DNA of 64,000 bases from Saccharopolyspora gloriosae. GTDB lineage: Bacteria; Actinomycetota; Actinomycetes; Mycobacteriales; Pseudonocardiaceae. The first letter of the stretch is position 1. Each line of letters starts with the position of its first letter. The stretch covers positions 3,411,501 to 3,475,500 of the forward strand of contig NZ_JACHIV010000001.1 in NCBI RefSeq assembly GCF_014203325.1. Reading direction: 5' to 3'. Position numbers and translations under genes: made by a program. Shown piece by piece: positions 25,659-44,687 of this stretch. The notes below the pieces were generated by a model, which made no database searches, had not been told where the DNA came from, and worked only from the letters and a program-made list of their open reading frames with translations.

Positions 25659-25744
25659 GTCCGAGTGGCGGAATGGCAGACGCGCTAGCTTGAGGTGCTA
25701 GTGCCCTACTAATGGGCGTGGGGGTTCAAGTCCCCCCTCGGACA
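25659..25744 (+). tRNA. tRNA-Leu (anticodon GAG)
   Basis: The acceptor stem GTCCGAG/CTCGGAC with discriminator A, a D-arm GCG...CGC, and anticodon stem CTAGC/GCTAG around loop TTGAGGT give anticodon GAG at 25692-25694. A long class II variable arm (TGCCC...GGGCG) and a T-arm GGGGG-TTCAAGT-CCCCC complete it. CCA is not encoded. Its 3' end is the integration core of the adjacent element; the gene is left intact. Confidence 0.95.
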
Positions 25745-27486
25745 CGCACGCTAACCACACGCGGTGAGATCGTAGCTTCTACGACTCGCGCGTGTGGTTC
25801 GTATTTGAGGCGGAGTTGCAGGCTGTCGTAGAGCTGGTTCAGGCTCTCCGGCTTGCCATCCGCGAGGGCAGCCCTCACGTCACCGAGCGAATCGATCATG
25901 GCGTAGACCTCCCCGTCTTTCAGCGTCCGCGCCTCGGGTGTGCCGTCCAACTCTGCTTGCGCGGCGGACCGCTCGGCTTGTGCCGTGTTGATCGCGTCGA
26001 CGAGCGCCGCCGGATCGGCTCCCGCTTCGACAGCGGATTGCAGGCGGTGCAGCCGCGTAGTGGAGTCGGTCAGCTTCTTCTTCAGCGCGTCCTTCGGGCC
26101 GGTCCGGTTGCTGGACTCGGCCTGAGAGCCGAGCAGTGCCGCGACGGTGCGATCGACGTTCGCCGGGGCGAACAGGTGTCCGATCCAGGTGTTGAGCGGT
26201 TCCAGCACGTCGGCTTCTCGCAGGTTCACCGTTCTCGGGTGATCGGCCAGTGCTTCAGAGCCGGGTGCGAGTGAGCGCGCCAGGCATCGGTAGTAGGTCT
26301 CGTGTTTGCGGATCATCGCGCCGTGCATCTTGCGGCCGCAGAACCCGCAGCGCGCCATTCCCCGCAGCAAGTACCGCCGGGTGCCCTTGTCGCGGGTCCG
26401 TTCCAGCTTCGCGATTCCTCGGTTGCCTCCCGCGGATCGCGATCGGCGGAGAAGCTGGGCTTGCGTGAACTCGTCCACGGACACGATCTCCGGGTGCGCC
26501 GGTGTGCGTGAGCGGACGATCCGGTCCGGGCTAGAACGGCGGAACCGCGTCACGTGTCCTGCGGCGACGTCATCGGGGTTGAGAAGGGTTTCGTGCTTCG
26601 TCCAGCGGCCGAAGATGGCGTAACCGGTGTACCGGGGATTTTCGAGGACGGCCCGCACGGTGCCAGCCTGCCAGCCGTCGGCGAGCCGGTGCCGGTTCTG
26701 GTCCGGCCGCTTCGCCGAGGGGCAAGGAATGCCGTCCCGGTTGAGTCCGTTGGCGATCGCCCGATCGCCCATGTCGTTGAGGTAGTCGCGGAAGATACGG
26801 CGTACGGCTTCGGCTGCTTCCTCATCGATCGCGAGCACCTTCAGACGGTAGCCCTCGGCCGCCTTACGCGGATTCGGGTGCGGTCCCCCATCGACAACCA
26901 TGTAGCCGTAAGGCGCTCGGCCGCCCTGATGGCGCCCCTCGTTGAGGACCTGAGCATCCATCGCAGCCCGAACCCGTGCTTGCACGTGCTGGCGCTCGGA
27001 CTCGCTCATGCCTCCGAGCACGCTCATGAGCATCTTGTGCGACGGGTTGCGGGTGTCGAACCTGCCGCCCAACTCCGGCACCCACAGATCCACCCCGTAG
27101 GCACCGAACTTCGGCGCGATCAACGAGAACTGGTTGCCGAACCAGCACCGGGTCCCTTCCCCGACCACTACGGCGTTCCAAGTCCGATTCGGGTCCTTCA
27201 GCGCGGCAAGGAGCTGGGAAGCGGCTTCACGGCGCTCCCACGGCACGGATCGGGACTGGCCCACGTCGAAGTACTCGGCGGCGACGACTCCGCCGAAGGG
27301 TTCGACGAACTTCTGAGCGTTGCCGAGCTGCCAGCCGTGCGAGGTCTCCGGGTCCTGGTTGTCCTCGGTAGAGCACCGCCCGTAGAACGCCACCGGGCCG
27401 ATCCCGTCATCAACGGCTTCGGTGACCTCGACGCCAAGTAGTTCGTCCAGCACCGCCAACGGATGCGAGCCGATTTCATCAGTCAA
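25726..27486 (-). CDS. int: Large serine integrase
   Basis: A 586-residue serine recombinase. The resolvase domain has YGRCSTEDNQ with nucleophile Ser39. A recombinase domain follows (GGRAPYGYMV...NPRYTGYAIFGRW), then a zinc ribbon CGFCGRKM...YYRC and a C-terminal coiled coil. The start is taken as TTG at 27486 because GGAGG lies eight bases upstream. The gene ends inside the tRNA: the stop TGA at 25726-25728 and the Thr codon before it come from host DNA. It would catalyse integration at tRNA-Leu and, with a directionality factor, excision. Confidence 0.92.
   Translation of the reverse strand: MTDEIGSHPLAVLDELLGVEVTEAVDDGIGPVAFYGRCSTEDNQDPETSHGWQLGNAQKFVEPFGGVVAAEYFDVGQSRSVPWERREAASQLLAALKDPNRTWNAVVVGEGTRCWFGNQFSLIAPKFGAYGVDLWVPELGGRFDTRNPSHKMLMSVLGGMSESERQHVQARVRAAMDAQVLNEGRHQGGRAPYGYMVVDGGPHPNPRKAAEGYRLKVLAIDEEAAEAVRRIFRDYLNDMGDRAIANGLNRDGIPCPSAKRPDQNRHRLADGWQAGTVRAVLENPRYTGYAIFGRWTKHETLLNPDDVAAGHVTRFRRSSPDRIVRSRTPAHPEIVSVDEFTQAQLLRRSRSAGGNRGIAKLERTRDKGTRRYLLRGMARCGFCGRKMHGAMIRKHETYYRCLARSLAPGSEALADHPRTVNLREADVLEPLNTWIGHLFAPANVDRTVAALLGSQAESSNRTGPKDALKKKLTDSTTRLHRLQSAVEAGADPAALVDAINTAQAERSAAQAELDGTPEARTLKDGEVYAMIDSLGDVRAALADGKPESLNQLYDSLQLRLKYEPHARVVEATISPRVVSVRVRGGT
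25731..25762. other. attL: core plus P' arm
   Basis: The core 25731-25745 is the T-stem end and acceptor 3' strand of tRNA-Leu. It is followed directly by the arm GCACGCTAACCACACGC (25746-25762). The last codons of the integrase gene run through this site on the minus strand. Confidence 0.85.
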
Positions 27487-27640
27487 GCTGTTCACCTCCC
27501 TCGGCCCCGTTCGGGGCCTTTGCGTCGGCCAGTTCAACCAGTATGACAAGTAGAGCGCGGCAGGTCTGCGGGGTTAGCTCCGGAAGTTCTGACGGGAAGT
27601 GGACGGTGATCCCGTCGCTCCTGTCGTCTGCGCTGCTCAC
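27479..27640 (-). CDS. Small 53-residue protein coupled to TraB-like and integrase genes
   Basis: The frame runs MSSADDRSDGITVHFPSE...LTPQTCRALLVILVELADAKAP and ends ...GGEQLD. The GTG at 27640 overlaps the stop of the translocase gene (GTGA), and its own end overlaps the integrase start by 8 bases, so it sits tightly inside the operon. GGAGG lies about 10 bases upstream. Small ORFs at this place are common in actinobacterial integrative elements. The function is unknown; a recombination directionality factor is one possibility. Confidence 0.65.
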   Translation of the reverse strand: MSSADDRSDGITVHFPSELPELTPQTCRALLVILVELADAKAPNGAEGGEQLD

Positions 27641-29778
27641 GCCCCGTCGTCCTCCGTCTCCTCATCGGAGCCGATTTCATCAGCCGCAAAGCGCTGGATG
27701 GCCGCGCGTATCTCGGCGGTGAAGTAGCCGCGAACCCGCTTGGTCTCGCCGTCGTCGGCGGGAACCCGGTTGCGGGTCGGGCGGCATCCGAGGTCGCCCA
27801 TCTGCTGAGCGAAGATGCCGGGAACCACGTCGAGCGCAGCGGTCAGTTCGCCGGACGGCACGAAGTCCCTTTCGTCGAGTTCCGAGCCGAGGTAGTGGCA
27901 CACGGACGCCAGGGGTTCGGGCAGGTTCTCCGGGATCGGCGCGCGGGCGGTCCCCGCACCGAGTGCCTTCACCACTGCGGTTTCGTCGATCGCCCGGTGA
28001 GCGTCGTCGCCGTTGGCATGTCCTGTGAGCGTCCCCGTGGCTTCCCGCAATGCTCGGCCGCGCTGGCAGATGTTCCGCCACTCGGCGTTGAGCATGTAGT
28101 AGGTCCGCACGATCAGCGCCAACGTCTCCTCGCCCGCATCGGTGTCGCCGTCCGGGCGGAGGATGCCAACTCCCTTGTGATTGGTGAGCAGCGTCGAGGC
28201 GTCGAAACCTCGGGTGTTCATCTGCTCGCCGAGCACGATGTTGGAGTCCCGCCAATCCATCACCCGCAACGCGAACCGCGATCCGAGCACGGCCCGCAGA
28301 CGGGACGGGATCGTGTTCGAGTCCGGCCGTTGCGTGGCGAGCACGACCACCACGCCGACCGCCGGCCCCTTTCGTGCGAGGTAGGTCAGCAGGTCCGCGA
28401 TGTACCCGCCGAGCGTCGTCTTCCGCCCGCCTACGTCCTCGCGTTCCGGGTTCTCCAAGAACACCTGAACCTCATCGATGATCACAGCGGTGATCGGCAT
28501 CGCAAGCGCTGAATCTCTAGATATGGCAGGGGTAATCTTCGACTCGGGGCAAACGTCATCGTCCAACTTGGACATACGGGAGTAGCGGCTCTGCACCTCG
28601 GCGACCAACTCGGCGAGGTGATCCCGAACAGCCGTCGCGTGCTCGATCTCGTCTCCGCAGACGAACCGGTGCGCCACAGCCTCGGCAGCCTCCCAGTCCT
28701 TCCCGCCCTTCCCATCGAAGACGTAGAGCCGGGTGTGCGGATCGAGGACCAGTCCGGCCGCCGGAACTCGAACCGCCGAAGTCTTGCCCTGCCGAGGGAT
28801 AGCGCCGACGAGTAGCGAGGTCCACACCAACGGCAGGTCGACCTTCCGATTGCGCGCGTCCACTCCGAACGGGATCGGTCGCCATGCGTCCCACCACTCC
28901 GCTTCGAGCAGCGGGAACCGAACCGGCGGACCGGCGTACGGGTCCTCGTCAGCCACCCACAGGAAGACCCGACCGGCGTGCCCACCGCGACCGCGCACCC
29001 GCTCGACGACAAGCTGAACCTCGTCGACCGCCAACGCGGAGGCGAGCGCTTCCCGGTTCTTCACGACGTCGGCCGCCTTGCGAGTGGCCGGAAGGTCCAC
29101 TGTGATCGCCCAGCCGTCGCCCGCACGCGACGCGCGCTCGACCAGACGCAGTGACTCGTCCTTGCCGACCAGCTTCGCGTCCCGGAAAGCGTCCACGAGA
29201 ACTTGAGGTTCCATCGCCCACGCGAACGAACGCGGACCGGACAGCACCGCTTTGCGGCCCGGAGCGCCTTCCTTCCGGCGACCGGTGACGGCGAGAGCGA
29301 CCGCCACAACGCCACCCGATCCCCACAGCGCCACCGTCCCGAAGCACAGGTCTGCGACGAGGAGCACCGAAGCCGTGAACAGCGCGACGGCACCCGTGAG
29401 CTTCCACCGGAACAAGGTGAGTTCACGGATCTCAATGAACTTGTCCGCCAACTTCTCGGACTGCTCGGCCGCTTCCCGGTAGTCCACGACGCGCACCCAC
29501 CGGCGCCACGTCCGCACGGCCAGCACCAGGCCGCGCCACACCGCACCGACGAACGACTTCGGCGAGCCGAGCAGGAACAGCGCGACATCCACCGCGGCGT
29601 TCTTGGCGGCTTCCCGTGAACGCAGCCCCGCCGGAATGTGCGTGGAGCTTCGCCACCACCTCGCGAAGCGTCGCCAACGGCTCGGCTTCGGCACCGGCGA
29701 GACGTCATCGACGAGATCCGCCTCGAACACGTGCCGTTCGACGTGCCCGAAAGAGCCCGAACCTTCCTCCGTACTCAT
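27637..29778 (-). CDS. FtsK/SpoIIIE-family DNA translocase (TraB-like)
   Basis: A 713-residue protein with two or three membrane segments in residues 60-180 and a C-terminal motor domain: Walker A GAIPRQGKTS, VFDGKGGKDW, Walker B AVIIDEVQVF and the LATQRPDSNTIPSRLR sensor region. A C-terminal winged-helix part follows (YFTAEIRAAIQRF). In actinobacterial conjugative elements a single FtsK-like protein moves double-stranded DNA between mycelia. The ATG at 29778 has GGAGG seven bases upstream and overlaps the preceding stop (ATGA). Confidence 0.87.
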   Translation of the reverse strand: MSTEEGSGSFGHVERHVFEADLVDDVSPVPKPSRWRRFARWWRSSTHIPAGLRSREAAKNAAVDVALFLLGSPKSFVGAVWRGLVLAVRTWRRWVRVVDYREAAEQSEKLADKFIEIRELTLFRWKLTGAVALFTASVLLVADLCFGTVALWGSGGVVAVALAVTGRRKEGAPGRKAVLSGPRSFAWAMEPQVLVDAFRDAKLVGKDESLRLVERASRAGDGWAITVDLPATRKAADVVKNREALASALAVDEVQLVVERVRGRGGHAGRVFLWVADEDPYAGPPVRFPLLEAEWWDAWRPIPFGVDARNRKVDLPLVWTSLLVGAIPRQGKTSAVRVPAAGLVLDPHTRLYVFDGKGGKDWEAAEAVAHRFVCGDEIEHATAVRDHLAELVAEVQSRYSRMSKLDDDVCPESKITPAISRDSALAMPITAVIIDEVQVFLENPEREDVGGRKTTLGGYIADLLTYLARKGPAVGVVVVLATQRPDSNTIPSRLRAVLGSRFALRVMDWRDSNIVLGEQMNTRGFDASTLLTNHKGVGILRPDGDTDAGEETLALIVRTYYMLNAEWRNICQRGRALREATGTLTGHANGDDAHRAIDETAVVKALGAGTARAPIPENLPEPLASVCHYLGSELDERDFVPSGELTAALDVVPGIFAQQMGDLGCRPTRNRVPADDGETKRVRGYFTAEIRAAIQRFAADEIGSDEETEDDGA

Positions 29779-30458
29779 CCGCGCACCTCCTCGGCGAGCG
29801 TCGCGGCGAGCCGGGACGACAGCCCACGCGAGCAACCGGCGACCTCCCGAACCCAGGCAGGCGTGACGACCGTTCCAGGAGTCCACGCCGACCGGGCGCG
29901 GTCCAAGTACTCGTCGAAGCTCACCCGCCGCTTCGGACCGGCCTCCTCGTCCACGGCCGGAGCTGGGTGTTCATCGACGTTCACAGCCATCCCGCGTGCG
30001 GCTTCGCCGAGCTTGTCCCGGAGGTCGGTCACGGCCTCGGCGGCGACGAATACCACCAGCGGCGGGACCGAGTGCAGCACCGCCAGGGCCGCAGAAGCGT
30101 CCGCGAACGCCTGCCAGGTGTTCATGACATAGGTGGCCGCGAGCGTGAACCACTTCGCGCCGCGAACCCACCCACCGGTGCGGATGCCGTACCGGGCGGT
30201 GACCTGCTCGGCCCGGAGTACCGCGAGCAGCACTAGCGACACCATCGGATCGAGCAGCCACGCGGCCCACCAAGGCAGCGACCACACCGCGGCACCGGCA
30301 GCGGCGAAGCTCTGAACGTTGGTCATGGTGAACGCGAGCCCGAGCAGGATTCCCGTCCAGCACAACCGGTCCACTTGCGACCGGGTCCGCTCGATTGTCT
30401 CGACTTCGGGTGAGGCGGGCGGCTCGTGCCGCCCGCTCTCGGCATCCCGCCGGTTCAT
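29775..30458 (-). CDS. Spd-like membrane protein (DUF2637-like)
   Basis: A 227-residue protein with four hydrophobic segments between residues 30 and 150 (LCWTGILLGLAFTMTNVQSF, WWAAWLLDPMVSLVLLAVL, FTLAATYVMNTWQAF, ALAVLHSVPPLVVFVAA) and a basic cytosolic C-terminus. This architecture matches the spread (Spd/DUF2637) proteins next to tra genes, which help the element move through the recipient mycelium. It overlaps the genes on both sides by four bases (ATGA). Confidence 0.7.
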   Translation of the reverse strand: MNRRDAESGRHEPPASPEVETIERTRSQVDRLCWTGILLGLAFTMTNVQSFAAAGAAVWSLPWWAAWLLDPMVSLVLLAVLRAEQVTARYGIRTGGWVRGAKWFTLAATYVMNTWQAFADASAALAVLHSVPPLVVFVAAEAVTDLRDKLGEAARGMAVNVDEHPAPAVDEEAGPKRRVSFDEYLDRARSAWTPGTVVTPAWVREVAGCSRGLSSRLAATLAEEVRG

Positions 30459-30781
30459 CGTCGGCCGCCCTTCCGGCGCGGTGTCTCGACGGTGACGGTC
30501 AACGCCTTGGTCACGGTGTAGGCGGCGAACAGCGCGGGGACCGCGAGCACCGTCCAGAGGAGCGCCCGGTTCTCGGCGTGGCTGATCACGATCCACTGCA
30601 CGCCGACGATCACAGCCGCGCCGAGCAGCACGCGGCTCGCGAGCGACATCAGCCGTGTGCCGACCTGCGCAGCGTCGTGCGCTTTCCGTGCGGCCCGCGC
30701 GCTGGCCCGGCGTAGCGCGACCAGGGCGACGAGCACGGCGACGCCGATCAGGATCTCTACCGGGGTGAGTTGGGGCATCAT
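30455..30781 (-). CDS. Small membrane protein of the transfer operon
   Basis: A 108-residue protein with an N-terminal membrane helix (VEILIGVAVLVALVAL), a basic region, two further hydrophobic stretches and a basic tail ending RRKGGRR. The first of two tandem ATGs has GGAGG nine bases upstream. It lies two bases after the WhiB-like gene and overlaps the next. SpdB-like by position and topology only. Confidence 0.65.
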   Translation of the reverse strand: MMPQLTPVEILIGVAVLVALVALRRASARAARKAHDAAQVGTRLMSLASRVLLGAAVIVGVQWIVISHAENRALLWTVLAVPALFAAYTVTKALTVTVETPRRKGGRR

Positions 30782-30783
30782 GG

Positions 30784-31125
30784 TCAGTCACCTCCCTCGG
30801 CGCGTTCACCGCGCTGGAGCCAGTGCATGAGCAGGTCGCGCCGGTCGTCCTCGGGCAGTGCGCCGAAGACCCCAACGGTGTTCTCGCCAGCGGTGCGGAG
30901 TTCCAGTTCCAGGCACTCGTCCTGAACCGGGCAGCCCTCGCAGAGCCGGGCGGCAAGCTCCCGATCCGAGAACGGTTCCTCGGGCGGCTCGTCGTGCGGG
31001 TCGCTGGTCATGCAGCTGCCGTTGCGGCCGACGATCTCGGTGAGCGAGGCGGTCGGCACCCAGCGCAGCCGATCCAGCCGCCACGCGATCCCGATCAGCC
31101 GGAGGTCGTTGAACGGCGTGCTCAT
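30784..31125 (-). CDS. WhiB-family iron-sulfur regulator
   Basis: A 113-residue WhiB-like protein. The four cluster ligands are Cys38, Cys62, Cys65 and Cys71 (CEGCPVQDEC), followed by the turn GVFGALPEDDR, which corresponds to GVWGG in the family, and a short basic end. The loop between the first and second Cys is rich in Asp, Glu and Pro. The ATG overlaps the upstream stop (ATGA). It could regulate the element or sense redox state. Confidence 0.85.
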   Translation of the reverse strand: MSTPFNDLRLIGIAWRLDRLRWVPTASLTEIVGRNGSCMTSDPHDEPPEEPFSDRELAARLCEGCPVQDECLELELRTAGENTVGVFGALPEDDRRDLLMHWLQRGERAEGGD

Positions 31126-31337
31126 CGGCCACCCCCGGAACGGATCTCGGTGGGCTCGCCGAGCAGCCGCGTGAGGGCGCTGGCCGGAACGACGAGCCGA
31201 CCGCGCCGCAGGACGGCGCGAAGGTGCCCGACGCGAACGGCGCGGGAGGCGGTCGCCGTCTCGACGCCGAGGATCGAAGCGGCTTGCCGAACCGTGTAGA
31301 AGGTCGAACGGTCGGCGGGACGAATAGCAGATCGCAT
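31122..31337 (-). CDS. Excisionase-like helix-turn-helix protein
   Basis: A 71-residue protein with a winged helix of the MerR/Xis type: FYTVRQAASILGVETATASRAVRVGHLRAVLRRGRLVVPASALTRLL. The ATG at 31337 has AAGGGG seven bases upstream and is preferred to a TTG one codon earlier. It is the first gene of the leftward operon, facing the XRE gene across a 30-bp palindrome. A role as excisionase or directionality factor is inferred from size and position. Confidence 0.75.
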   Translation of the reverse strand: MRSAIRPADRSTFYTVRQAASILGVETATASRAVRVGHLRAVLRRGRLVVPASALTRLLGEPTEIRSGGGR

Positions 31338-31356
31338 CAAAAATCCCCTTGGATTA

Positions 31357-31386
31357 CTGATTTCATCATTATGTTGATGAAATCAG
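31357..31386. promoter_or_regulatory. 30-bp operator-like palindrome
   Basis: The arms CTGATTTCATCA (31357-31368) and TGATGAAATCAG (31375-31386) are perfect reverse complements around a 6-base spacer. They lie between the divergent excisionase-like and XRE genes and are AT-rich against the background. This is the probable switch controlling the transfer/integration operon. A related GATTTCATC string recurs at 31915-31923, upstream of the next regulator gene. Confidence 0.75.
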
Positions 31387-31496
31387 CGCATGAATGGACG
31401 TGTTCGTTCGCCGTGCCGCGAAAAGCGCGGTGTCACGGGTGGAAGGAAGAGCGAGAACGGTTAACCTCGGCGCCGAGGCGGAGCGCGGAGGAATAG

Positions 31497-31877
31497 GTGT
31501 CGGAAGATTGGGCGTCAGTCGCCAAGGCCATAAACGAGCGCGTCAACGCGCTCGGATGGCGCCAACGGGAACTCGCGGACCGATCGCGCGTCTCGCAAGC
31601 GATCGTCAGGGAGATCCAGCACCACACGGTGGAGCGCCGGCGGAGCGCGCGAACGCTGGAGTCCCTGTCCACCACCCTCGGGTGGCACCCGCAGCACCTC
31701 GACGCCGTGCTGAACGGGCGCACACCACCTGAGCAGTCCGAAGACACCGGCCGCGGCGACTCGCTGGCGTCCAGGTTGGACGCCGTCGAGGACCGCCTGG
31801 CCGAGATCACCGAGCGCTTGGACGACTTGAAGACCGACCTGAGAACGGTGGCCGAGAATGTCCGCCCGAACCGGTAG
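31497..31877 (+). CDS. XRE-family regulator with C-terminal coiled coil
   Basis: A 126-residue protein. Residues 5-70 form a Cro/CI-type helix-turn-helix (INERVNALGWRQRELADRSRVSQAIVREIQ...LESLSTTLGWHPQHLDAVL). Residues 90-120 are a predicted coiled coil (RLDAVEDRLAEITERLDDLKTDL). The GTG has GGAGG five bases upstream. By position it is the likely repressor acting at the palindrome 31357-31386. Confidence 0.82.
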   Translation: MSEDWASVAKAINERVNALGWRQRELADRSRVSQAIVREIQHHTVERRRSARTLESLSTTLGWHPQHLDAVLNGRTPPEQSEDTGRGDSLASRLDAVEDRLAEITERLDDLKTDLRTVAENVRPNR

Positions 31878-32016
31878 CGGGAAATTCGCCGCCGTGGTGT
31901 TTTCCATGCCATTGATTTCATCTGGAATCGCCGCCGATCCCCATGCGGATTCGACGCACTTCCAGTGCATGAGCAGTGCGGAACCAGTGCACAACGGCTT
32001 TGCGAGGCGCTGAACG

Positions 32017-33693
32017 ATGGACCTGACCAGCGGCTGGACGGGCGAGACCGCGTGCGCATTACAAGCGGCGTTAAGGCTCAGCAATGAGGGATTCGCCGAG
32101 CACCTCGGAATCGGTGTGCGCACCGTGGCCGGGTGGCATCAGAAACCGGACCTACGTCCGAAATCCGAGATGCAACAGCTCCTCGACACCGCGTTGGAGC
32201 AGGCTTCGGCTCAGGCGAAGGACCGCTTCGCCGCGCTCACCGCAAACTCGACGGAACAGGATGTCCGCAACGAACTGTCAGGCAGCGTCTCTGGCTTGGT
32301 CTTTCAGGTAGGGCAGCACGTCGGCGACACCCATGTGCACCAGCACTTCTCCTCGGATACGGGCTCGGCGGAGCGGGTCTCTGCGGTCACCGAAGCTGAG
32401 CGCCGGTTAAGCGCAGACCCGAACATCGGTGCGGCGCTGGACTGGGTCGACAACAGGGCTGGATGGGAACCTGGCACCGCGCGCAGGAAGACTGCGGCAC
32501 GGTTAGCGGAGCTCGACGCGAGCTCTTTACAGGACCGAGGAAAACGCCGCGGGCGAGTGAATCAGCGCGACATCGCGCACGCACTTGCCGAGTACTACCG
32601 GGACCGTCCGGACACTCACGGGCTCTACAGCGCGCGGTACGGCGACCACGAGTCGGCGACGAGCATCCTCACCAGCTCGGATTGGCTCGATCTGAACGCG
32701 CCTCTCATCGCATCGCATGACCGGCTTCGAGCTTCGACTGCGGCTGACGCCGAACTGTCGTTGGACGAGGAAGCCGCCTCGCGTGCCATCGATCGGCTGG
32801 CGGAGACGCTGACGCTCGGAATCCGCATGGTCGACATGCCGCTATACCGGCTGCTTGGCGTCGACTTCGAAGGTGGGCGGGTCGGCGGGTCACTCGGGAT
32901 GACGCGGTTCGTCGAGTACGCGCTGACGATGGATCTACTCGAAGCCGAGCTGGTCGACGCGCTCACCTCGGGCCAAGTGCCGGAACCGGGGGCGCTCTCG
33001 CTACGGGACCGCCACCTGCCCGACGTGGCATCGGTGTTGGACATGTCCGGGCGGCTCTGTTCCGGCGGCACGCTGGCCTTGTGCGCCTTCGCGCGCCCGG
33101 CGAGCCCACTCCGCGGTGAAGCCGACTACCTGTTGCTCGTTCAGGAGCGTTCGGGCCACGTCGTGAACGCCTCCCGACGCCTGGCCGTCACGCCGAAGGG
33201 CTTCCACCAACCGTTGACCGACGTGCGCGCCGATGCGCAGGTCGGCGCGACGCTGCGGCGCGAGATGGAAGAGGAGCTGTTCGGCCGCGACGAGATCGAC
33301 AACACCGTGGGCGACCAACGCAAGGCCGACCCGATGCACCCGAGTCGTCTCTCCGAGCCGATGCGCTGGCTGCTCGATGAGCCCGGCCGACTGCGGACGG
33401 AGTGCACCGGTTTCGGCCTGAACCTGGTCAGCGGGAACTTCGAGTTCGCCGGGCTGATCGTCGTCGAAGACGAGGAGTTCTGGAACCGCTTCGGCGGGCA
33501 GATCGAAGCCAACTGGGAGACGGCGAACCTACGGCAGTACTCCAGCCTCGACGGCGAAGCGCTGGCCGACCTGGTGCGCGATGTAGCGTGGAGCAACGAA
33601 GGATTGTTCGCGCTGCTGCAAGGACTTCGGCGGCTCGCGAACCTTGGCGGCGAGCGGGTGGACCTGCCGGAAATCGGATGGGAGCTTCGGTAG
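32017..33693 (+). CDS. HTH regulator with large C-terminal Nudix-like domain, paralogue 1
   Basis: A 558-residue protein. The N-terminus (ALRLSNEGFAEHLGIGVRTVAGWHQKP) is a helix-turn-helix. The long remainder includes ALDWVDNRAGWEPGTARRK, MPLYRLLGVDFEGGRVGGS and a helix TLRREMEEELFGRDE, which resembles the Nudix REUxEExGU signature with an extra residue before the Gly. Residues from about 130 onward are clearly homologous to the protein encoded at 34012-35691. It may be a ligand- or nucleotide-sensing regulator. It overlaps the cupin gene start (TAGTG). Confidence 0.65.
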   Translation: MDLTSGWTGETACALQAALRLSNEGFAEHLGIGVRTVAGWHQKPDLRPKSEMQQLLDTALEQASAQAKDRFAALTANSTEQDVRNELSGSVSGLVFQVGQHVGDTHVHQHFSSDTGSAERVSAVTEAERRLSADPNIGAALDWVDNRAGWEPGTARRKTAARLAELDASSLQDRGKRRGRVNQRDIAHALAEYYRDRPDTHGLYSARYGDHESATSILTSSDWLDLNAPLIASHDRLRASTAADAELSLDEEAASRAIDRLAETLTLGIRMVDMPLYRLLGVDFEGGRVGGSLGMTRFVEYALTMDLLEAELVDALTSGQVPEPGALSLRDRHLPDVASVLDMSGRLCSGGTLALCAFARPASPLRGEADYLLLVQERSGHVVNASRRLAVTPKGFHQPLTDVRADAQVGATLRREMEEELFGRDEIDNTVGDQRKADPMHPSRLSEPMRWLLDEPGRLRTECTGFGLNLVSGNFEFAGLIVVEDEEFWNRFGGQIEANWETANLRQYSSLDGEALADLVRDVAWSNEGLFALLQGLRRLANLGGERVDLPEIGWELR

Positions 33694-34037
33694 TGGGCGA
33701 CAACTGGTACAGCGGGAACGCCGCCGAAGACGGCAAGGAAACCCGCGGCTGGCTGCTCGGCCACTTCAGGCCCGAAGAGGACGTGCGTCACTCGACTGAC
33801 GCCGAAGTGAAGTGGGGCATCCACGAGCCCGGCGAGGCGCGTACGGAGTGGGCATCTGACGCCGACCGCACGACGATGCTGCTTCTCGTCCAGGGGCGGT
33901 TCCGACTCGATCTCGCCGAAACCAGCATCACGCTGGAGAACCAGGGCGACTACGCGGTTTGGGGACCGGGCCACGAACACAAGTGGGAAGCGCTGACTGA
34001 CGCGGTCGTGATCACCTTCCGCTGGCCGACGTCGTGA
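33693..34037 (+). CDS. Small cupin-like protein
   Basis: A 114-residue protein with a single-domain cupin pattern: VKWGIHEPGEARTEWASDADRTTMLLLVQGRFRLDLAETSITLENQGDYAVWGPGHEHKWEALTDAVVITFRWP. One His and several Glu/His residues could bind metal. The GTG at 33693 overlaps the stop of the preceding regulator, with GGAG eight bases upstream, so the two are co-translated. Its end overlaps the opposing paralogue by 26 bases. Role unknown, perhaps ligand sensing for the regulator pair. Confidence 0.65.
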   Translation: MGDNWYSGNAAEDGKETRGWLLGHFRPEEDVRHSTDAEVKWGIHEPGEARTEWASDADRTTMLLLVQGRFRLDLAETSITLENQGDYAVWGPGHEHKWEALTDAVVITFRWPTS

Positions 34038-35691
34038 ACTCGGCGTCCACTGTGGGCAGATCCAGGCGCGGATCATTGCTCTCGCCGAGCCTGCGAATTC
34101 CCTGAAGCAGCGCGAAAAGACCTTCGTTGCTCCACGCTTCGTCAGCGATCAGTTGGTTCCACAGCTCGCGGTCCAGTGTGGAGTAGAGCCGCAGCCCGGA
34201 CGCCTCCCAGTTCGCCTCGATGTCGCCGCCGTACCGCCTCCAGAACTCCTCATCGTCGATGACGACGAGACTCGCGAACTCGTAGTTCCCGCTCACCAAG
34301 TTGAACCCGAACCCGGTGCACTCCCGACGCAGTCGGCCGGGCTCGTCGAGCAGCCAGCGCATCGGGTCCGAGAGCCGACTCCGGTGCATCGGAGCGGCCA
34401 CGCGCGGCTCTCCAGCAGTGCCATCGACCTCGGCCCGGCCGAACAGCTCCTCTTCGAGCTCTCGAAGTAGCGTCGAACCGATCCGCGCTTCCGCGCGAGC
34501 TTCCTTCAACGGCTGGTGGAACCCCTTCGGGATCACGGCTAGCTGTCCGGTCGCGTTCAGCACGTTCCCCGAGCGCTCCTGAACGAGAAGCGCGAAGTCC
34601 GCTGGACCTCGGTACGGGTCGGCTGGTCGCGCGACCGCACAGAGCGCCAGAACTCCGCCAACGCACTTCCTCGCGCGAAGATCGAGCACTTCGGACAGGC
34701 CCGGCAGGTATTCGCCCCGGATCGGTAACTCACCGCGCCGAATCGGCTGCCCGTCGCTGATCGCGTCGAGCAGTTCGCCTTCGAGGAGATCCGAGGTAAG
34801 CGCGTACTCAGCGAAGGGCGCGAGGCCGAACGAGCCGTTCACCGCGTCGCCGGTGAGGTCGACACCGTGGAGTCTGTAGAGCGGTGCGTTGGTCATTCGC
34901 ACGCCGAGCGCCGTGGCTTCGGCAAGGCGGTGAATCGCCCTCCGGCTGTCGATGGGACTCGTCGATGATCCGGGCGCCTGATCAGCTAGCGCCAACATGT
35001 CGTGTTTCGGTGTGAGCGGGATTCCGAGGCTGGTCCAGTCTGGTCGTGCGAGAAGGCTGGTGCCGATCTCTCGGTCGTCGACGCGCACGCGGTGGATCGA
35101 GTATCCGTTGGTGACGGTCTGCCCGTAGTACTCGGCGAGCGCTTCGGCGACTGCCGTCCGTCCAACCCGACAGCGACGAGCGTTCCGGTCGAGCAGGTCG
35201 CCCGCGCTCAGTCGGGACAGGCGGGACCGAACCTTTCGCTTGGCGGTCCCGGCAGTCCACCCGGCGTGCTGATCGAGCCAGGCGAAGGCAGAAGGCAAGT
35301 CGCCGGTTACCTCTGTCCCGATCGTGGACGCCTCACTGACCGCCGCCGTGCTCGGCTCCACTTGCGTTCGAGAAGCGCTCGATCGGTCGTCGCTACGGGG
35401 TCCCGCTGAAGGAACGCCCGAAGGAACCGACTGTGGATCGGGCTCGCTGAGCAGCGTCTCAACGCTGTCGCCGAAGATCCGTTCCAACAGGCGTGCCGTC
35501 GCTGGCCGCACCCGGCCCAGCGGCTTCCCACGAGCCCCACGCCCGGCGACAAGTCGCTGCAAGTGCCGGACCCCGAGCGTGCCCACCTCGCCGTGCTCGC
35601 GCGCGTACGCCTCGGCGTACTCGGCGAACTCATCCAACGTCAGCCGCCGCTCACGTATCCGCTGTTCGAGCACCGTCCGGTAGCTCCACAC
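34012..35691 (-). CDS. HTH regulator with large C-terminal Nudix-like domain, paralogue 2
   Basis: A 559-residue protein homologous to the one at 32017-33693 over its last 430 residues: WLDQHAGWTAGTAKRK, NAPLYRLHGVDLTGDAVNGS, VIPKGFHQPL, STLLRELEEELFGRAE, DPMRWLLDEPGRLRRECTGFGFNLVSGNYEFA. The N-terminal 100 residues differ between the two, so the input or DNA-binding part has been exchanged. The GTG at 35691 has AGGGG upstream; the long extension to 36237 has no support. The two paralogues face each other around the cupin gene. Confidence 0.65.
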   Translation of the reverse strand: MWSYRTVLEQRIRERRLTLDEFAEYAEAYAREHGEVGTLGVRHLQRLVAGRGARGKPLGRVRPATARLLERIFGDSVETLLSEPDPQSVPSGVPSAGPRSDDRSSASRTQVEPSTAAVSEASTIGTEVTGDLPSAFAWLDQHAGWTAGTAKRKVRSRLSRLSAGDLLDRNARRCRVGRTAVAEALAEYYGQTVTNGYSIHRVRVDDREIGTSLLARPDWTSLGIPLTPKHDMLALADQAPGSSTSPIDSRRAIHRLAEATALGVRMTNAPLYRLHGVDLTGDAVNGSFGLAPFAEYALTSDLLEGELLDAISDGQPIRRGELPIRGEYLPGLSEVLDLRARKCVGGVLALCAVARPADPYRGPADFALLVQERSGNVLNATGQLAVIPKGFHQPLKEARAEARIGSTLLRELEEELFGRAEVDGTAGEPRVAAPMHRSRLSDPMRWLLDEPGRLRRECTGFGFNLVSGNYEFASLVVIDDEEFWRRYGGDIEANWEASGLRLYSTLDRELWNQLIADEAWSNEGLFALLQGIRRLGESNDPRLDLPTVDAEFTTSASGR

Positions 35692-35938
35692 CGCCGATCC
35701 CCTCCCCGAAGAGGCCGCCCCGTGTCGTCCGCAAGCCGTCCCGAAGTCGTTCCGTCTCGATTTCGGCGACAACAAGCTGATTTCAGTCTGACACGGACCG
35801 AACACACACGGTCCATTGAGTCGTCCGGCGTCGAGCGCTCCGCCTCTATTGCGCCGCCGCCGGACCACCGCGGGCGGAGCCGGCAAACCCCCGATCCCCG
35901 GTTCCGCCCGCGGCCCAACTTCACCAAGGAGCAGCCGC

Positions 35939-36229
35939 GTGTCCGACACGATCCAGTGGTTCCAGTACAAGCCCGGCCTCGTCGGCGAAACCCAACGCGT
36001 CACCCACTGCACCCGCATCACCGTCGGAGACCGGATCCGCTCTTGGTGCCGCCGCGAATTCGACGTCTCCGCCGTCGAAGAGGCGGCAGAGCCCGGCGCA
36101 GAGCCAGGTCCCGGCCAAGTCGCGCCCTGCGGACCGTGCGTCCCGTGTCTACTGCTCGCCACTGCTGCAACCGAGCAATCCCCGGCCCAGCCACCCGCCC
36201 GCGCCGCGCTCGCAGTCGGGCATCCATAA
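35939..36229 (+). CDS. Small element protein with CxxCxxC
   Basis: A 96-residue protein starting MSDTIQWFQYKPGLVGETQRVTHCTRITVGDRIRSWC, with a CGPCVPC cluster near residue 70. The GTG has AGGAG eight bases upstream. It is divergent from paralogue 2. No family was recognised. The cysteines could bind zinc. Confidence 0.5.
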   Translation: MSDTIQWFQYKPGLVGETQRVTHCTRITVGDRIRSWCRREFDVSAVEEAAEPGAEPGPGQVAPCGPCVPCLLLATAATEQSPAQPPARAALAVGHP

Positions 36230-36256
36230 CTAGTCATGTGCTGCCGATACGCCTGG

Positions 36257-37727: not shown

Positions 37728-37751
37728 GAATCTTCGAGGGGGAACACCGCA

Positions 37752-38891: not shown

Positions 38892-38926
38892 GAAACGCCG
38901 ATGATTTCCTTGTTGAGAGGCTGAAG

Positions 38927-39523
38927 TTGCCCGAAATCGCGCCCAAACCAAACTCCCTCACCGGGAATCCTCGTCCGCCGCGCGCTCCGGTCTCCGCCGA
39001 TTACAGCGGTGACGTGAAGAATGACCCGGATCGGGCTGACTATCCGGCAGCCCCAGAAGGGCACGGGCCAGTGCTCGAATGGCACCAAGGCCGTGCCTCG
39101 ACATCGATACTAGGTGGATTCTTTCTCCTGCTGATTCTTTTTTTGTTCATGTGCCTTCGGGATTGGGGAATCAGCTGGATGAGCACCTGGTGGCTGTGGC
39201 TCTTCATCGCCTGGCCTCCATTCGTTTTTTACTTCATCGGCAAAAGCGTTGGCATTTCCGCAGGCGCCGACTGGTTCGCAGTCAAAACCGGCTACGTCGA
39301 AACCTACGAACTAGCCCAGGTAAAAGTGGTCGGAACTAGTGGAGGACTCGCATGGGATCTCGAGCTCAAGGACAAACAAGGAAACGAGTTATCGATCAAC
39401 CTGCGGGAGATCCAGACTAATCGCGACCTCTGGGATCTTGTCTACAACGGAATTGTCCACTCAGTACAGCGGGGCAGCGCAAAAACCAACACCCGCGCCT
39501 TGGATAAACTGAAGTTGCGGTAG
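38927..39523 (+). CDS. Two-helix membrane protein, candidate immunity protein
   Basis: A 198-residue protein. A Pro-rich N-terminus is followed by two membrane helices at about residues 60-105 (ILGGFFLLLILFLFMCL and WWLWLFIAWPPFVFYFIG) and a soluble domain of about 90 residues. The TTG at 38927 is set by GAGAGG six bases upstream. Local GC content is clearly below the chromosomal genes. Its place after a membrane-active toxin candidate suggests immunity. Confidence 0.6.
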   Translation: MPEIAPKPNSLTGNPRPPRAPVSADYSGDVKNDPDRADYPAAPEGHGPVLEWHQGRASTSILGGFFLLLILFLFMCLRDWGISWMSTWWLWLFIAWPPFVFYFIGKSVGISAGADWFAVKTGYVETYELAQVKVVGTSGGLAWDLELKDKQGNELSINLREIQTNRDLWDLVYNGIVHSVQRGSAKTNTRALDKLKLR

Positions 39524-40464
39524 GCTTGTTTCCCACTCTGCCTCTATGCTCGGGAATCGACATACTACACCCCAATTCAAACGTGCCTGTTTTTTTAGCT
39601 AGCGCATGGTCCGTCGGTCCAGCAGCTAGCGCGCCTGCGCGTTATCAACTCCCTATCTGGAAAGGTCGTTTTTGGCTCTATGCAGGGCGACCCGAAACTG
39701 TACTTAAGTTGTGATCAGTACCCCACCAGACATAGCACGTTTCGCGGCCCTCAGGACGGTCGAGACACCTTTGGCTGAATTTCACATTACTCGGACACCG
39801 ACAGCTGTACCCGGGTGACTATCGTTGGCGGATGACGGACCAGTACCGTTTCTCGCAATCTTGGCGAATTCAGTTCATTGACTTCCTCGTTCGGCCTCGC
39901 GCTGTCCCCGCCAAGGCGCACCGAACTGCATCAGGACACCGGTCGACCTCTACGGAAGCGCACCTGGTGGCGTCACAGCCAAGCCTGAAACGCACCAACC
40001 GAAACGTTCAAGTCAGCTTCGGAAGGAGCCCGGACCACACCTGCCGCCCGTCCACCGGCACGTCGGCGAGCCAAACGATTCAGATAGCCATGCGCCTACC
40101 CGGTGTCCACGGCGCATCCCGATCAGCTCAGCCACATCCTCCACTCCCTCGATGACCAAGAAAAATAGCCCAGAGAACACCAATTTACGAGCTGGCAACA
40201 GCGTACCGGTCTCACTCTGTCGCCATACGGAGTAGCCATACGGAGCGACCGACCGAAACGGGCCGCCGCCACCAAAACAGGCCAGAGCCGTTAAGCCGAC
40301 AGCCCTCTCCCGCCGATGCGGCACTAACCTCGTCGTCAAGCGGTACCCCGATCGTCAACACCACCACAGACTCACCCGACGCTTAATCATGCTGAAAGTG
40401 TCCCCCGAGATCTGGGCGTACGGTACAGTATCCCTGAGTGATTGACTGAATACCCGGAGGCGCT
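39524..40464. other. 940-base AT-richer spacer
   Basis: No gene is convincing. Short frames at 39832-40155 (plus) and 40013-40339 (minus) overlap each other and lack ribosome sites. A direct repeat CCATACGGAG occurs at 40223-40232 and 40236-40245. TACAGT near 40430 may be the -10 box of the next gene. The composition suggests imported or decayed DNA. Confidence 0.45.
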
Positions 40465-41148
40465 GTGAAGACGGTTCCCTCAAGCTTATTGCAAGTGGCG
40501 TTCATCGTCCTGATCGTACTACCCGGGGTGACTTACCAGTTCCTCCGGGAACGCTGGCGAGGACCAGTTCCAGCCGAGCAAAATTTCGGGCAGCGTGTAC
40601 TGCGAGCAATTACTGCATCACTGGTGCTGGATGCCTTTTACGTCATTATCGCTGGGCCGCAGCTGTTATTCCTGGTACGCGGCAACCTACCTACCGGGTT
40701 CGATGGATTGACGCAGAATATTCGGACAGTGGGCGTGACCGCTATGTTATTATTCACCGTCATTCCTGCCATTGCCGCCGGTGCCGTGTCGTGGTGGGAA
40801 CGACGACGACTGGGCGCCACCTTCCGGGGGGTTCCAACCGCCTGGGACCATACTTTTCGAGACCGAGGGCCGTGCTTCGTTCGTGCCCGACTAGCGAATG
40901 GATCATGGATTGGCGGCTGGTACGGAACGCGTTCGTACGCTACATCGTACCCACACGCGGGTGAAATTTTCCTCCAATCAGCTTGGCAAATGGATCAAAA
41001 TGGTAGGTTTATGCGCAAAACTAACGACAGCGCTGGGGTGTTCTTTCGGATAGACGACATCGAAATTCTCGAACTACTCGATCCCCCCTCGCATCCCGAT
41101 ATGCACAAGGAGACGGATTGTGAACAAGAAGCGGCAGCTAACGCCTGA
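40465..41148 (+). CDS. DUF6338 family membrane protein
   Basis: A 227-residue protein with an N-terminal membrane helix, two further helices (about 50-75 and 88-110) and a cytosolic SH3-like domain (PCFVRARLANGSWIGGWYG...GVFFRIDDIEILELL). This matches DUF6338, a family scattered in actinobacterial accessory islands and of unknown function. The GTG has GGAGG four bases upstream. The next small gene starts inside its end. Confidence 0.75.
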   Translation: MKTVPSSLLQVAFIVLIVLPGVTYQFLRERWRGPVPAEQNFGQRVLRAITASLVLDAFYVIIAGPQLLFLVRGNLPTGFDGLTQNIRTVGVTAMLLFTVIPAIAAGAVSWWERRRLGATFRGVPTAWDHTFRDRGPCFVRARLANGSWIGGWYGTRSYATSYPHAGEIFLQSAWQMDQNGRFMRKTNDSAGVFFRIDDIEILELLDPPSHPDMHKETDCEQEAAANA

Positions 41149-41281
41149 CGAAAAGGCACTCCTCGTCAACGGAGGGCCAGGTCGCGGCTACGTTCCGAAG
41201 GGCGATGATGATGAACCCGATGAAGCTCCCTCAAGTCCGGGCTCACCCTCACCCTCACCCTCCAGCGACGCAGACCAGTAA
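41120..41281 (+). CDS. Small 53-residue partner of DUF6338
   Basis: The product begins MNKKRQLTPDEKALLVNGGP and ends in an acidic, Pro/Ser-rich tail (GSPSPSPSSDADQ). The GTG has AAGGAG about eight bases upstream and overlaps the DUF6338 gene by 29 bases, indicating coupled translation. Function unknown. Confidence 0.65.
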   Translation: MNKKRQLTPDEKALLVNGGPGRGYVPKGDDDEPDEAPSSPGSPSPSPSSDADQ

Positions 41282-41493
41282 CCCTGCGACCAGCCGAAGC
41301 CAATTCACCTCAAACGCTATTGCCAGAAAGTGACTCAGGGAATTAAGTCCAAGATAGATACAAACCCTGTGGTTGCCCTTCTGGTGTACCCCTACCTGCA
41401 CTGTTGGGCGCGTGACCAATCGTAGCTCTTAATTGGCCGTCATCATTGAGTTCGATTGGAAGCAGCCTCTCTCTACCTGGAAGGGCACAAGGA

Positions 41494-44400
41494 TTGCCAG
41501 ACGAATCAGTGAGAAATCCAGGACAGGATCGGGTACGAGCTGAGCTGCTCTCCGCCGTGGTCGATCGGCTGCGGCGGGTCGAAGATACGTTCGCTCTGTC
41601 ACCGGTCTTGGAGCCCGCAGCGCTCGACCAAGCGCGACAATTAGCCGATTTGCCGTGCTTCGCCGAAGGGGATGTCGACGTGCGGTATGCACTGGGCTGG
41701 TTTTACTGGTTACGACACCTAGCATTGTCCGGGACGAAGAGGCAGACAGCACGGGACACTGCCATGCGTGTGTTTCGCCCCTGCTTCATCGTCGGAGCCC
41801 GCCGCCTTCCGGAGCCGCTGCGACCTGACCTCGCGAAGGCCACCGCACCAGTAGCCGACGCCTTACTTGAACGGGCACGTACTACGAAGGATCTCGACGA
41901 GGCCACCTGGGCCGTGACCGTGTGGAAACGCCTGGTGCGTGCCACGCCCATCGATCACCCGTCCCATGCGGTCTTCCAGACCAGCCTTGGAATCGCTTTG
42001 GAGGTTCACTTCAAGAATGGCGGTCAGCTGCGTGACCTTGACGAGGCGGTCAGGGCCCACCGGATCGCCGCGCACCTGATCCCTGCCAATCAACCCAACC
42101 GGTGGAAGGTAATAACTAACCTGGCCAACCAGCTGCATTCCCGCTCCGTACACACTGGCTCACCGGAGGATTTGAACGAGGCGATCCGGCGCGGTTGGGA
42201 AAGTATCGCCACCATATCCGACGAGTCAAAGCACCTGGCTGGGCCACTAATCAACGTTAGTAACGCACTACAGACGAGGTTTGAGCGCACTGGCTCCGCC
42301 GACGACCTTGACACGGCTATCGAAGCGGCACGGCGCGCGGTGGAGGTTACTCCCGCCGCCTGCCCTGAGGAGGCACTTGCGCACGCCTGTCTCGGGGGTG
42401 CGCTTATAACGCGGTTTGGACGTACCAATACAAGGAAAGATCTTGACGAGAGCGTCAACGCGTTCGAAGTGACGCTCAAAGCCACACCAGCCGATCATCC
42501 GAGTCTGGCTGGGCGCTTGTCTAATCATGGATCCGCACTGCTCACCCGGTTTAGCCGTGTCAACGATGACGCTGATCTACGTAGAGCGATCGATGACCTA
42601 CGTAGTGCAGTGGCAGTCACCCTCGCAGGCCATCCTAGTCGTGGGGGGTACCTGATAAAATTGGCAGCAGCATTGGATGAATACGGCAAGCTGACGGGCC
42701 AACCGCCTGCGCTGGATGAGGCTGTCCGGATCGCCCGCGAAGCTATCGATACCACCCCCGAAAATCATCCGAGTCGGGGTGGACACTTGATTGGCCTCGG
42801 AAACGCATTGCATGTCCGATACGACTTCCTGGGGGATCCAGCGGACTTGGATGCCGCCATACGGATATATGAGGACGCGGCTAACGATACTGGCTTGTCG
42901 CCTTCGGTACGCATCGAAGCAGCACATGAGGCCGCCAGGCATCTGGTGGAGTCTGAACCTCATGAGGCAGCGGTGCTGATGGAGAACGCTGTCCATCAGC
43001 TGCCGGAGTTAGCTTCGCGCCATATGAGGCGTGTCGACCAACAACGTGCACTTGACCGGCTTCCCGTTCTCACTAGCGATGCTGCCGCCCTTGTTCTCGC
43101 CCATGCATCCGGAACCTCACACAACCGCGCTGTTCGAGCTCTACAAGTGCTTGAGTCCGGGCGCGGCGTACTTCTTAGCCAGGCGATGGAGGTTCGGGAT
43201 GACCTCACCGAGTTGCGTCATCGGCACCCAGAGCTGGCAGCAAGGTTCGTCGATCTGCGCAACCGACTCGATCAAGGCGTTGACGATATATCCTCTTTCG
43301 TCCATTTGATTGCGCAGCGCAAGTCGGGAATCGACCCGCAGAGCCGGTATCAACTTGTCACCGAATTCAATAAGGTTCTCGCGCAGATTAGAGCAAAGAA
43401 CGGATTCACATCATTTGGCCTTCCACCAAGCTTGGACGAAATCCTCTCTGCAGCGACGGAGGGCCCGGTCGTGATGTTCAATGTCAGCCGACACCGCAGC
43501 GACGCTATACTGATCACAGCAGCTGGAGTTACCTCAACGCCCCTTCCTGGACTGGAAATCCGCGCTCTAATCCGCGCATTCGAATCCTTTCACCAAGCCG
43601 TGCATACCTCCATGCACGACAGCATAGACGCCGTGTACGACGCCCAGACGACTCTGACACAGACCCTGGAATGGCTTTGGGATGTGGCTGCCGAACCGGT
43701 CTTGGAAGCACTCGGGTTCCACGATCAACCCTTACCCGGAGAGCCATGGCCGCGGGTGTGGTGGGCGCCGGGCGGCGTCCTCGGACTGCTACCCATCCAT
43801 GCCGCCGGCTACCACGACGATCCCGCCGGAAAATCAGACCGGCGCACCGTCTTGGATCGTGTCGTTTCCTCCTACACGCCAACCATTCGCACCCTGCATC
43901 ACGCCCGCGGGCGGGCGTTGGCAACAACTACTTCACACCATGCATTGATCGTCGCGATGCCCACCACGCCTGGACAGATGCCGCTAGCCCATGTACGAGC
44001 AGAAGCCACACGGCTGGCGAATCGCCTACCCAACTCGGTCACACTTATCGAGCCCGAAACCGAGATATGCAAGGAAGGCGATCAGGGGTCGCGCCCGACT
44101 CGGGAGCGTGTTCTTAGCCATCTCCCCGCGTCTCCCATCGCACATTTTGCTTGCCACGCCATCACTGATCCTCGTGACCCGTCCGAGAGCCGACTGCTGC
44201 TTCACGACCACAACACCGCGCCACTAACTGTGGCCAGTCTCGGCCCCCTCAATCTCGACCAAGCCCACCTTGCCTATCTGTCAGCATGCAGTACATCAGT
44301 CGTGCACACGCCCGGGTTGGTCGACGAAGCCATCCACCTCACCTCCGCGTTTCAGGTGGCCGGATATTCACACGTGGTTGGCACGCTCTGGGAAATCCAC

Positions 44401-44574
44401 GATCAAGTCGCTGAAGAAGTGGCTGACACCTTCTACAGTAAGCTAATTAATGATCACTACGGCCTTGACGCGAAACGCGCCGCGTATGCCCTCCACCACA
44501 CAGTCCGCGCGGTACGAGACCGACTGCCCAATACCCCGTTTCTGTGGGCTGCCTACCTCCATGCGGGGGCCTAG
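41494..44574 (+). CDS. TPR-CHAT caspase-like protease
   Basis: A protein of about 1026 residues. Residues 120-500 are repeated helical units with a conserved ADHPS/NHPSRGG...LGNALHVRY pattern (TPR-like). The C-terminal 350 residues form a CHAT domain with the catalytic dyad His888 in IAHFACHA and Cys932 in LAYLSACSTS, then VAGYSHVVGTLWEI and PFLWAAYLHAGA. The TTG at 41494 has AAGGG eight bases upstream; a TTG at 41446 is an alternative. CHAT proteases can act in self-killing or defence pathways. No sensor or substrate gene is obvious beside it. Confidence 0.85.
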   Translation: MPDESVRNPGQDRVRAELLSAVVDRLRRVEDTFALSPVLEPAALDQARQLADLPCFAEGDVDVRYALGWFYWLRHLALSGTKRQTARDTAMRVFRPCFIVGARRLPEPLRPDLAKATAPVADALLERARTTKDLDEATWAVTVWKRLVRATPIDHPSHAVFQTSLGIALEVHFKNGGQLRDLDEAVRAHRIAAHLIPANQPNRWKVITNLANQLHSRSVHTGSPEDLNEAIRRGWESIATISDESKHLAGPLINVSNALQTRFERTGSADDLDTAIEAARRAVEVTPAACPEEALAHACLGGALITRFGRTNTRKDLDESVNAFEVTLKATPADHPSLAGRLSNHGSALLTRFSRVNDDADLRRAIDDLRSAVAVTLAGHPSRGGYLIKLAAALDEYGKLTGQPPALDEAVRIAREAIDTTPENHPSRGGHLIGLGNALHVRYDFLGDPADLDAAIRIYEDAANDTGLSPSVRIEAAHEAARHLVESEPHEAAVLMENAVHQLPELASRHMRRVDQQRALDRLPVLTSDAAALVLAHASGTSHNRAVRALQVLESGRGVLLSQAMEVRDDLTELRHRHPELAARFVDLRNRLDQGVDDISSFVHLIAQRKSGIDPQSRYQLVTEFNKVLAQIRAKNGFTSFGLPPSLDEILSAATEGPVVMFNVSRHRSDAILITAAGVTSTPLPGLEIRALIRAFESFHQAVHTSMHDSIDAVYDAQTTLTQTLEWLWDVAAEPVLEALGFHDQPLPGEPWPRVWWAPGGVLGLLPIHAAGYHDDPAGKSDRRTVLDRVVSSYTPTIRTLHHARGRALATTTSHHALIVAMPTTPGQMPLAHVRAEATRLANRLPNSVTLIEPETEICKEGDQGSRPTRERVLSHLPASPIAHFACHAITDPRDPSESRLLLHDHNTAPLTVASLGPLNLDQAHLAYLSACSTSVVHTPGLVDEAIHLTSAFQVAGYSHVVGTLWEIHDQVAEEVADTFYSKLINDHYGLDAKRAAYALHHTVRAVRDRLPNTPFLWAAYLHAGA

Positions 44575-44652
44575 CACTGAAGCGACACGTCATACGATTC
44601 ATGCCTGCTAGGCGCATTGCTGCGGCCCTCAATCCTTTTCGGGAAGGATAAG

Positions 44653-44687
44653 GCGTGTGGTTAGCGCGCAACTCCCCCCTCGGACAC
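44653..44687. other. attR: P arm plus core
   Basis: The arm GCGTGTGGTTAGCGCGC (44653-44669), three bases, then the core TCCCCCCTCGGACAC (44673-44687). The arm is the reverse complement of the attL arm with one mismatch. Host DNA resumes at 44688. Confidence 0.85.

Follow-up and report, generated by a model that had tools for sequence, protein, structure and literature searches.

Integration is predicted to exchange the 3' end of a serine integrase gene in a tRNA-Leu element of Saccharopolyspora gloriosae, displacing a conserved coding tail

We analyzed a 64,000-nucleotide stretch of the Saccharopolyspora gloriosae genome (assembly GCF_014203325.1, contig NZ_JACHIV010000001.1, positions 3,411,501 to 3,475,500 of the forward strand), hereafter the window. 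It carries a putative integrative element beside a tRNA-Leu(GAG) gene, and our subject is the gene for its serine integrase, int, together with a short coding segment found at the other end of the element. The features concerned are as follows, in window coordinates (aa, amino acids; ORF, open reading frame).

25726-27549, minus strand: serine integrase gene int, integrated form (607-aa ORF ending VRGGT; Pfam domains)
25659-25745, plus strand: tRNA-Leu(GAG), the target gene (ARAGORN, sequence)
25731-25745, plus strand: attL core (exact 15-bp repeat)
44673-44687, plus strand: attR core (exact 15-bp repeat)
25746-25764, plus strand: inner attP arm, also coding for the residues that immediately precede the core (forms the dyad with the distal arm; consensus of relatives)
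44652-44672, plus strand: distal attP arm, whose minus strand codes for the start of the tail (dyad; present in 70 of 390 family genomes)
44629-44672, minus strand: displaced int 3' end, a 14-codon tail SCALTTRLILPEKD plus TGA (ORF list, script, coding-type conservation in relatives)

By its three Pfam domains, Resolvase (PF00239), Recombinase (PF07508) and Zn_ribbon_recom (PF13408), all above cut-off, the int product is a large serine recombinase (integrase). Residues R58-P67 (RCSTEDNQDP) are unchanged across 42 sequences. Translation probably starts further in, around residue 19-22 (27495-27486), since alignment of 80 relatives places a stop opposite query residue 7 in 20 of them; the C-terminus is unaffected. 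At that end the protein reads VSVRVRGGT, and the stop codon (TGA, 25728-25726) lies within tRNA-Leu(GAG), whose T-loop supplies it in antisense. The window contains two exact copies of the 15-bp core, TCCCCCCTCGGACAC, and no others: one from 25731, at the end of the tRNA gene, and one from 44673. It falls in the two Gly codons of VRGG. At the 44673 copy, reading on through the core in the frame of int gives RGG-SCALTTRLILPEKD, with a stop at 44631-44629; the first base of this tail is the last base of the core.

When the cores were rejoined by script, the circle carried an ORF of 620 aa ending VRGG-SCALTTRLILPEKD, compared with 607 aa ending VRGGT in the integrated state: a gain of 14 codons and a loss of one Thr. 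The initial annotation had described the int frame as crossing attL, stopping in the tRNA and ending VRGGT, and its coordinates and translation are right. The script likewise confirmed its account of attR, where the frame runs through the core into the VRGG-tail and on to the stop at 44629, and reproduced the trimming of 14 codons and addition of one Thr that it had attributed to integration. The rejoined junction forms a dyad with 20 of 30 positions matched, centered inside the core and including a run of 14 matches at 13-26 bp from the center; the next-best center at this junction reaches 13 of 30. A dyad this strong supports the two half-sites as true partners. The half-sites fit the expectation for a large serine integrase (∼25 bp each around the crossover, whose position is predicted by sequence), and the rejoined attP lies entirely within the int 3' end, with the layout expected of a serine-integrase attP. 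Two sequence-predicted isoforms tied to the integration state are well supported. Excision itself, the production of the two proteins and any functional difference between them are inferred.

Matches to the integrase were found in 89 of 150 related genomes, and ARAGORN placed tRNA-Leu(GAG) in 25 of 30 loci fetched among those matches. We kept 80 named related loci out of 137, from Saccharopolyspora, Amycolatopsis, Lentzea, Saccharothrix, Nocardia, Rhodococcus and Antrihabitans, among others. The integrase ends in Thr-stop beside tRNA-Leu in 60 of these, in Thr-stop without an intact tRNA-Leu at that place in 7, and otherwise in 13, several of which read into other sequence at the same junction. 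When reverse-complemented, the distal arms match the consensus drawn from 50 unique inner arms. At two loci with diverged arms (L138 and L167), int ends shortly past the core in other tails. In a subfamily 41-46% identical to the window integrase, one member (L029) ends VRGGT in the same frame.

To follow the tail itself, genomes were searched with a distal-arm pattern, allowing up to 3 mismatches and using the reversed pattern as control. The arm was present in 70 of 390 genomes of the family, and the control gave none among the matches listed. Pattern matches and earlier loci together yielded 103 different arms, 77 of which carry the motif [ST]C[ATS]L[TS]TR[LIVM]x[LIVM] in the int frame. Tail residues 2 and 4 are Cys and Leu in 102 of 102 unique-downstream copies, both codons lying within the searched pattern. 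The pattern ends within codon 9, so the sequence beyond was not selected for. There, L, I, V or M is encoded by codon 10 in 100 of the 102 unique copies, and by codon 12 in 95 of 101, with codon 11 free. Entropies at the first, second and third positions, taken over 93 non-redundant copies, are 1.41, 0.17 and 1.63 bits for codon 10 and 1.25, 0.43 and 1.60 bits for codon 12. Conservation past the searched arm is therefore coding-like in these alignments: second codon positions are nearly fixed, and first and third positions vary.

Stop codons point the same way. A stop within nine codons of the arm was seen in the int frame in 79 of 93 copies, and in the other two frames in 20 and 23; base shuffles (2000 rounds) gave a mean of 22.8 and a maximum of 36, a comparison that is not a strict probability, the arm copies being related by descent. 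The bases of codons 10 and 12 lie at 27-35 bp from the dyad center. According to one account, a dimer of LI integrase is expected to contact 50 bp of attP, i.e. a 25-bp half-site (PMC3783163), which would place codons 10-13 outside the site. Chance read-through, considered as a candidate, is ruled out by the codon-type conservation and the clustered in-frame stops beyond the arm.

A second lineage, mostly Nocardia, shows the same arrangement with integrases 58-60% identical to that of the window and a slightly different core. Distal arms were found in 7 of 8 genomes with these integrases (9 arms in total), and one further arm of this type came from 1 of 397 genomes of the order. A tail of 12-13 codons of the type THALTTEIDLRK, followed by a stop, is present in all 10, some of which are near-copies of one another. 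His occupies the position of the Cys of the first set in 8 of the 10, with Pro and Arg in the other two. By these comparisons, the displaced tail is conserved as protein-coding sequence in relatives. The initial annotation's proposal that excision would restore the longer tail can accordingly be extended to the family: the distal tail is coding-conserved in elements of both Pseudonocardiaceae and Nocardia.

We also classified junctions by the core alone. In the first locus set (n = 64), 39 lead into an intact tRNA-Leu, 9 into the tail and 16 into other sequence; at the Nocardia loci (n = 25), the corresponding numbers are 10, 8 and 7. The other core junctions seem to belong to other elements using the same tRNA end. 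In 14 of 103 cases, the arm is immediately preceded by int-coding sequence whose frame stays open across the core, and 27 of the 103 arms have some int match in the 600 bases upstream that were covered. As read from these junctions, an int gene can continue into the distal arm of a neighboring element, giving a natural long form.

How the tail might act is suggested by structure prediction. A model of the short form, built from 42 sequences, has a mean predicted local distance difference test score (pLDDT) of 64.9 and a predicted template modeling score (pTM) of 0.40. It shows the terminal β-hairpin of the zinc domain complete, with strands at 580-584 and 589-593; the natural long form from L138 (mean pLDDT 70.2) has the same hairpin. 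A search of the PDB with the single integrase sequence gave no match, and a profile search gave weak matches to the SPbeta integrase YokA (E 0.0012) and to two others (sohair, protein design). The canonical zinc domain is described as ending in the hairpin β13-β14 (PMC3783163). In phiC31 integrase, I582, in the β14-matching strand, is reported to be needed for binding of gp3, the recombination directionality factor (RDF) (PMC5814800). By model and analogy, the tail is fused directly behind the predicted RDF-docking hairpin. It is a hydrophobic stretch with Cys (or the His of most Nocardia-type arms), adjoining the counterpart of the RDF-binding hairpin.

These data can be assembled as follows. 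Recombination at the core would sever the 3' end of int and carry it to the opposite edge of the element, which is where it is found. The integrated gene instead stops one codon after VRGG, where the T-loop of tRNA-Leu supplies a TGA in antisense; excision would bring back the other, long end. The long form would be made only from the free circle and would suit attP × attB integration; the short form would be made only when integrated and would suit excision with a directionality factor. Loss or gain of the tail beside the terminal hairpin of the zinc domain may alter the RDF response, synapsis or stability, and by analogy we judge a state-dependent RDF response the most likely mechanism. That the isoforms differ in activity, and in this way set the direction of recombination, as the initial annotation suggested, is plausible because the tail directly follows the hairpin strand whose phiC31 counterpart the RDF needs, and because, by sequence, the circle is the sole predicted source of the long form and the integrated gene that of the short form (outside arrays). 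From the coding-type conservation of the tail we infer that the long form is the selected native protein. For the whole proposal (a gene end swapped by integration and excision, a long tail selected as native protein and suited to attP × attB, and a short form suited to excision with the directionality factor), we see the chances as evenly balanced. A wider version is offered tentatively, at somewhat below that level: the preference for one direction would be set by the physical state of the element, the circle writing an integration-proficient tail and integration erasing it to leave an RDF-responsive excision form, and the tail would be a cis-encoded directionality module across Pseudonocardiaceae and Nocardia.

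Several points weigh against this proposal, in addition to the shared descent of the arms. Conservation of the tail is evidence of its importance rather than of a role in one particular reaction. The arm pattern was itself built from such arms, and residues up to codon 9 are thus partly search-selected. Stops come later than nine codons in 14 of 93 copies, and in 2 of 103 arms the 130 bases read contain none. The other ends at 13 of 80 loci are likely to reflect some tolerance or decay. Only 9 of 64 and 8 of 25 core junctions lead into the tail. In the 41-46% group, four integrases (L030, L084, L086 and L089) cross the core in another frame (VSEGGLEPP..), and the distal arm was not found for this 41-46% group in 20 genomes plus 13 more; a single 3-mismatch match in the 20 genomes was judged to be chance, and the other 13 gave 0. 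Model confidence is low at the C-terminal end: in the short form, pLDDT is below 50 from residue 598 and ∼30 in the attP-encoded segment; in the L138 long form, that segment has ∼40 and the tail is likewise of low confidence. Finally, an excised circle was not found, with 0 exact arm matches in viral contigs and no plasmid match.

Other explanations must be considered. The tail might simply be the native C-terminus, serving folding or stability in the recipient, with the short form slightly worse yet working and direction set by the RDF alone. Serine integrases are indeed described as RDF-directed (PMC3783163, PMC5814800), and the zinc-domain hairpin is predicted to be complete in the short form as well. 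This explanation leaves unaccounted for why the gene should end on the far side of attP in many genera, since the protein would not change if int stopped short of the core; the objection is softened if the placement of attP is historical. We regard this as possible but on the whole doubtful. Still less probable is a neutral origin, in which the overlap of attP with the end of int is fortuitous and the tail is no more than a DNA-binding site translated by read-through. A requirement for the attP half-site alone would hold most bases constant as far as ACACG, where the arm ends, yet codon-type conservation and clustered in-frame stops persist past the half-site and recur in the Nocardia-type arms, which makes such an origin very improbable.

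Integration could instead act on amounts: the exchange of 3' ends might change the level of the protein or mRNA, for instance through loss of a terminator or degradation signal. The BPs repressor is a direct precedent, as an attP-driven change of its C-terminus is reported to alter degradation (PMC4557955). In the integrated state, moreover, int transcription would run antisense into tRNA-Leu. Compared with the ssrA tag pattern, the tails have no ssrA-like ending (..LTTRLxLP.., ends variable), and a degradation tag was considered and set aside as unsupported. No terminator-like site was found near the tail of the window, and a run of five Ts within 55 nt past the tail stop occurs in only 9 of 101 arms, for which reason a general terminator swap was also rejected. 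We consider control of stability or expression unlikely, though not to the degree of the neutral origin. In six elements (L058, L082, L255, L258, L264 and L267), a hairpin, identified by eye, and a T-run lie directly past the tail stop; in these, integration would also part int from its terminator.

The remainder of the element, and its neighbor, contain the following.

27637-29886, minus strand: FtsK/SpoIIIE-type DNA translocase, likely conjugal transfer protein (PF01580, E 1.1e-7; weak NCBIfam TraB match below cut-off)
31122-31340, minus strand: 72-aa HTH_17/excisionase-like protein, candidate directionality factor (PF12728 above cut-off; TIGR01764 below cut-off)
41446-44574, plus strand: 1042-aa protein with a C-terminal CHAT domain, cargo beside attR (PF12770, E 1.8e-42)
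45273-46337, plus strand: tyrosine recombinase of the neighboring element, right of 44687 (library scan)

The element is probably an integrative, and probably conjugative, island whose int gene ends across its own attP. Of the gene set of actinomycete integrative and conjugative elements (AICEs), integrase and FtsK-type translocase are both present; a Rep family was not found among the 12 element ORFs scanned against Pfam, NCBIfam or both. The CHAT-domain cargo protein is possibly a defense gene, and its CHAT part has a below-cut-off match to the CRISPR-linked TPR-CHAT protein Csx29. Two ORFs in opposite orientation (32017-33693, plus strand; 34012-36237, minus strand) are evidently paralogous by eye and have no Pfam match; both contain an R-E-x-E-E-E-L-F-G-R stretch, which we take to resemble a Nudix box. 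A tRNA-Pro(CGG) called by ARAGORN at 29707-29797 (minus strand) overlaps the FtsK-like frame and is probably a false positive.

The mobile region does not end at 44673, where another element, with the tyrosine recombinase, starts. The host genome has four 14-bp copies of the core, all on the same strand, which, with the tyrosine recombinase just right of 44687, marks tRNA-Leu as a hot spot. Cores in this genome (G000) lie at 3456174, 3525736 and 3594684. Further right lie another serine integrase, 45% identical, and a fragment of an integrase with 86% identity. The locus is an array of unlike elements, with serine and tyrosine recombinases and a common core.

What sets the direction of serine integrases has been asked for a long time, and the answers so far have been separate RDF proteins. 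Under our proposal, each recombination event would rewrite the enzyme itself; selection has maintained the reading frame of the exchanged part as well as its residues. The elements would also provide natural enzyme pairs differing by one short tail. With 67 of 80 loci showing the trimmed Thr-stop form, members of this group that are cloned from genomic sequence for use as tools may be missing the native C-terminal end.

In the literature searched (open-licence papers), we found no serine integrase trimmed by its own integration. Related arrangements are known. Archaeal integrases of the SSV type belong to the tyrosine family, and on integration their gene is broken in two, not shortened by a small tail. 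Their int gene is reported to extend across attP (PMC4383910), as it does in the window element. Eight Mycobacterium AICE serine recombinases are described as residing in one tRNA-Leu gene (Ghinet 2011, PMC3218068). The type of target gene is the same as here; the text of that paper seems to describe no C-terminal exchange (0 occurrences of "C-termin"). BPs-type immunity systems place attP inside a reading frame whose prophage form is C-terminally shorter (PMC4557955), and in integration-dependent immunity a stop codon at attL is reported to end the short form (PMC8092301). The likeness to the window element lies in the attP within a reading frame and in the shorter integrated product ended by an attL stop. 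In those systems, however, a repressor is switched, the lost tail bears a degradation tag and the M. abscessus examples use a tyrosine-type integrase, whereas here the integrase itself would be switched, attP lies in int and no tag is visible. The closest precedent is Myxococcus phage Mx8, a tyrosine-recombinase phage in which attP lies inside int and the C-termini of the free and integrated forms differ, as they do here by sequence. Integration of Mx8 is described as giving int a new 3' end that modifies its specificity without inactivation (PMC6070905; PMC4383910, citing Tojo 1996). The element studied here differs from Mx8 in that the gene concerned encodes the serine integrase of a tRNA-Leu element and the short tail is conserved over many genera.

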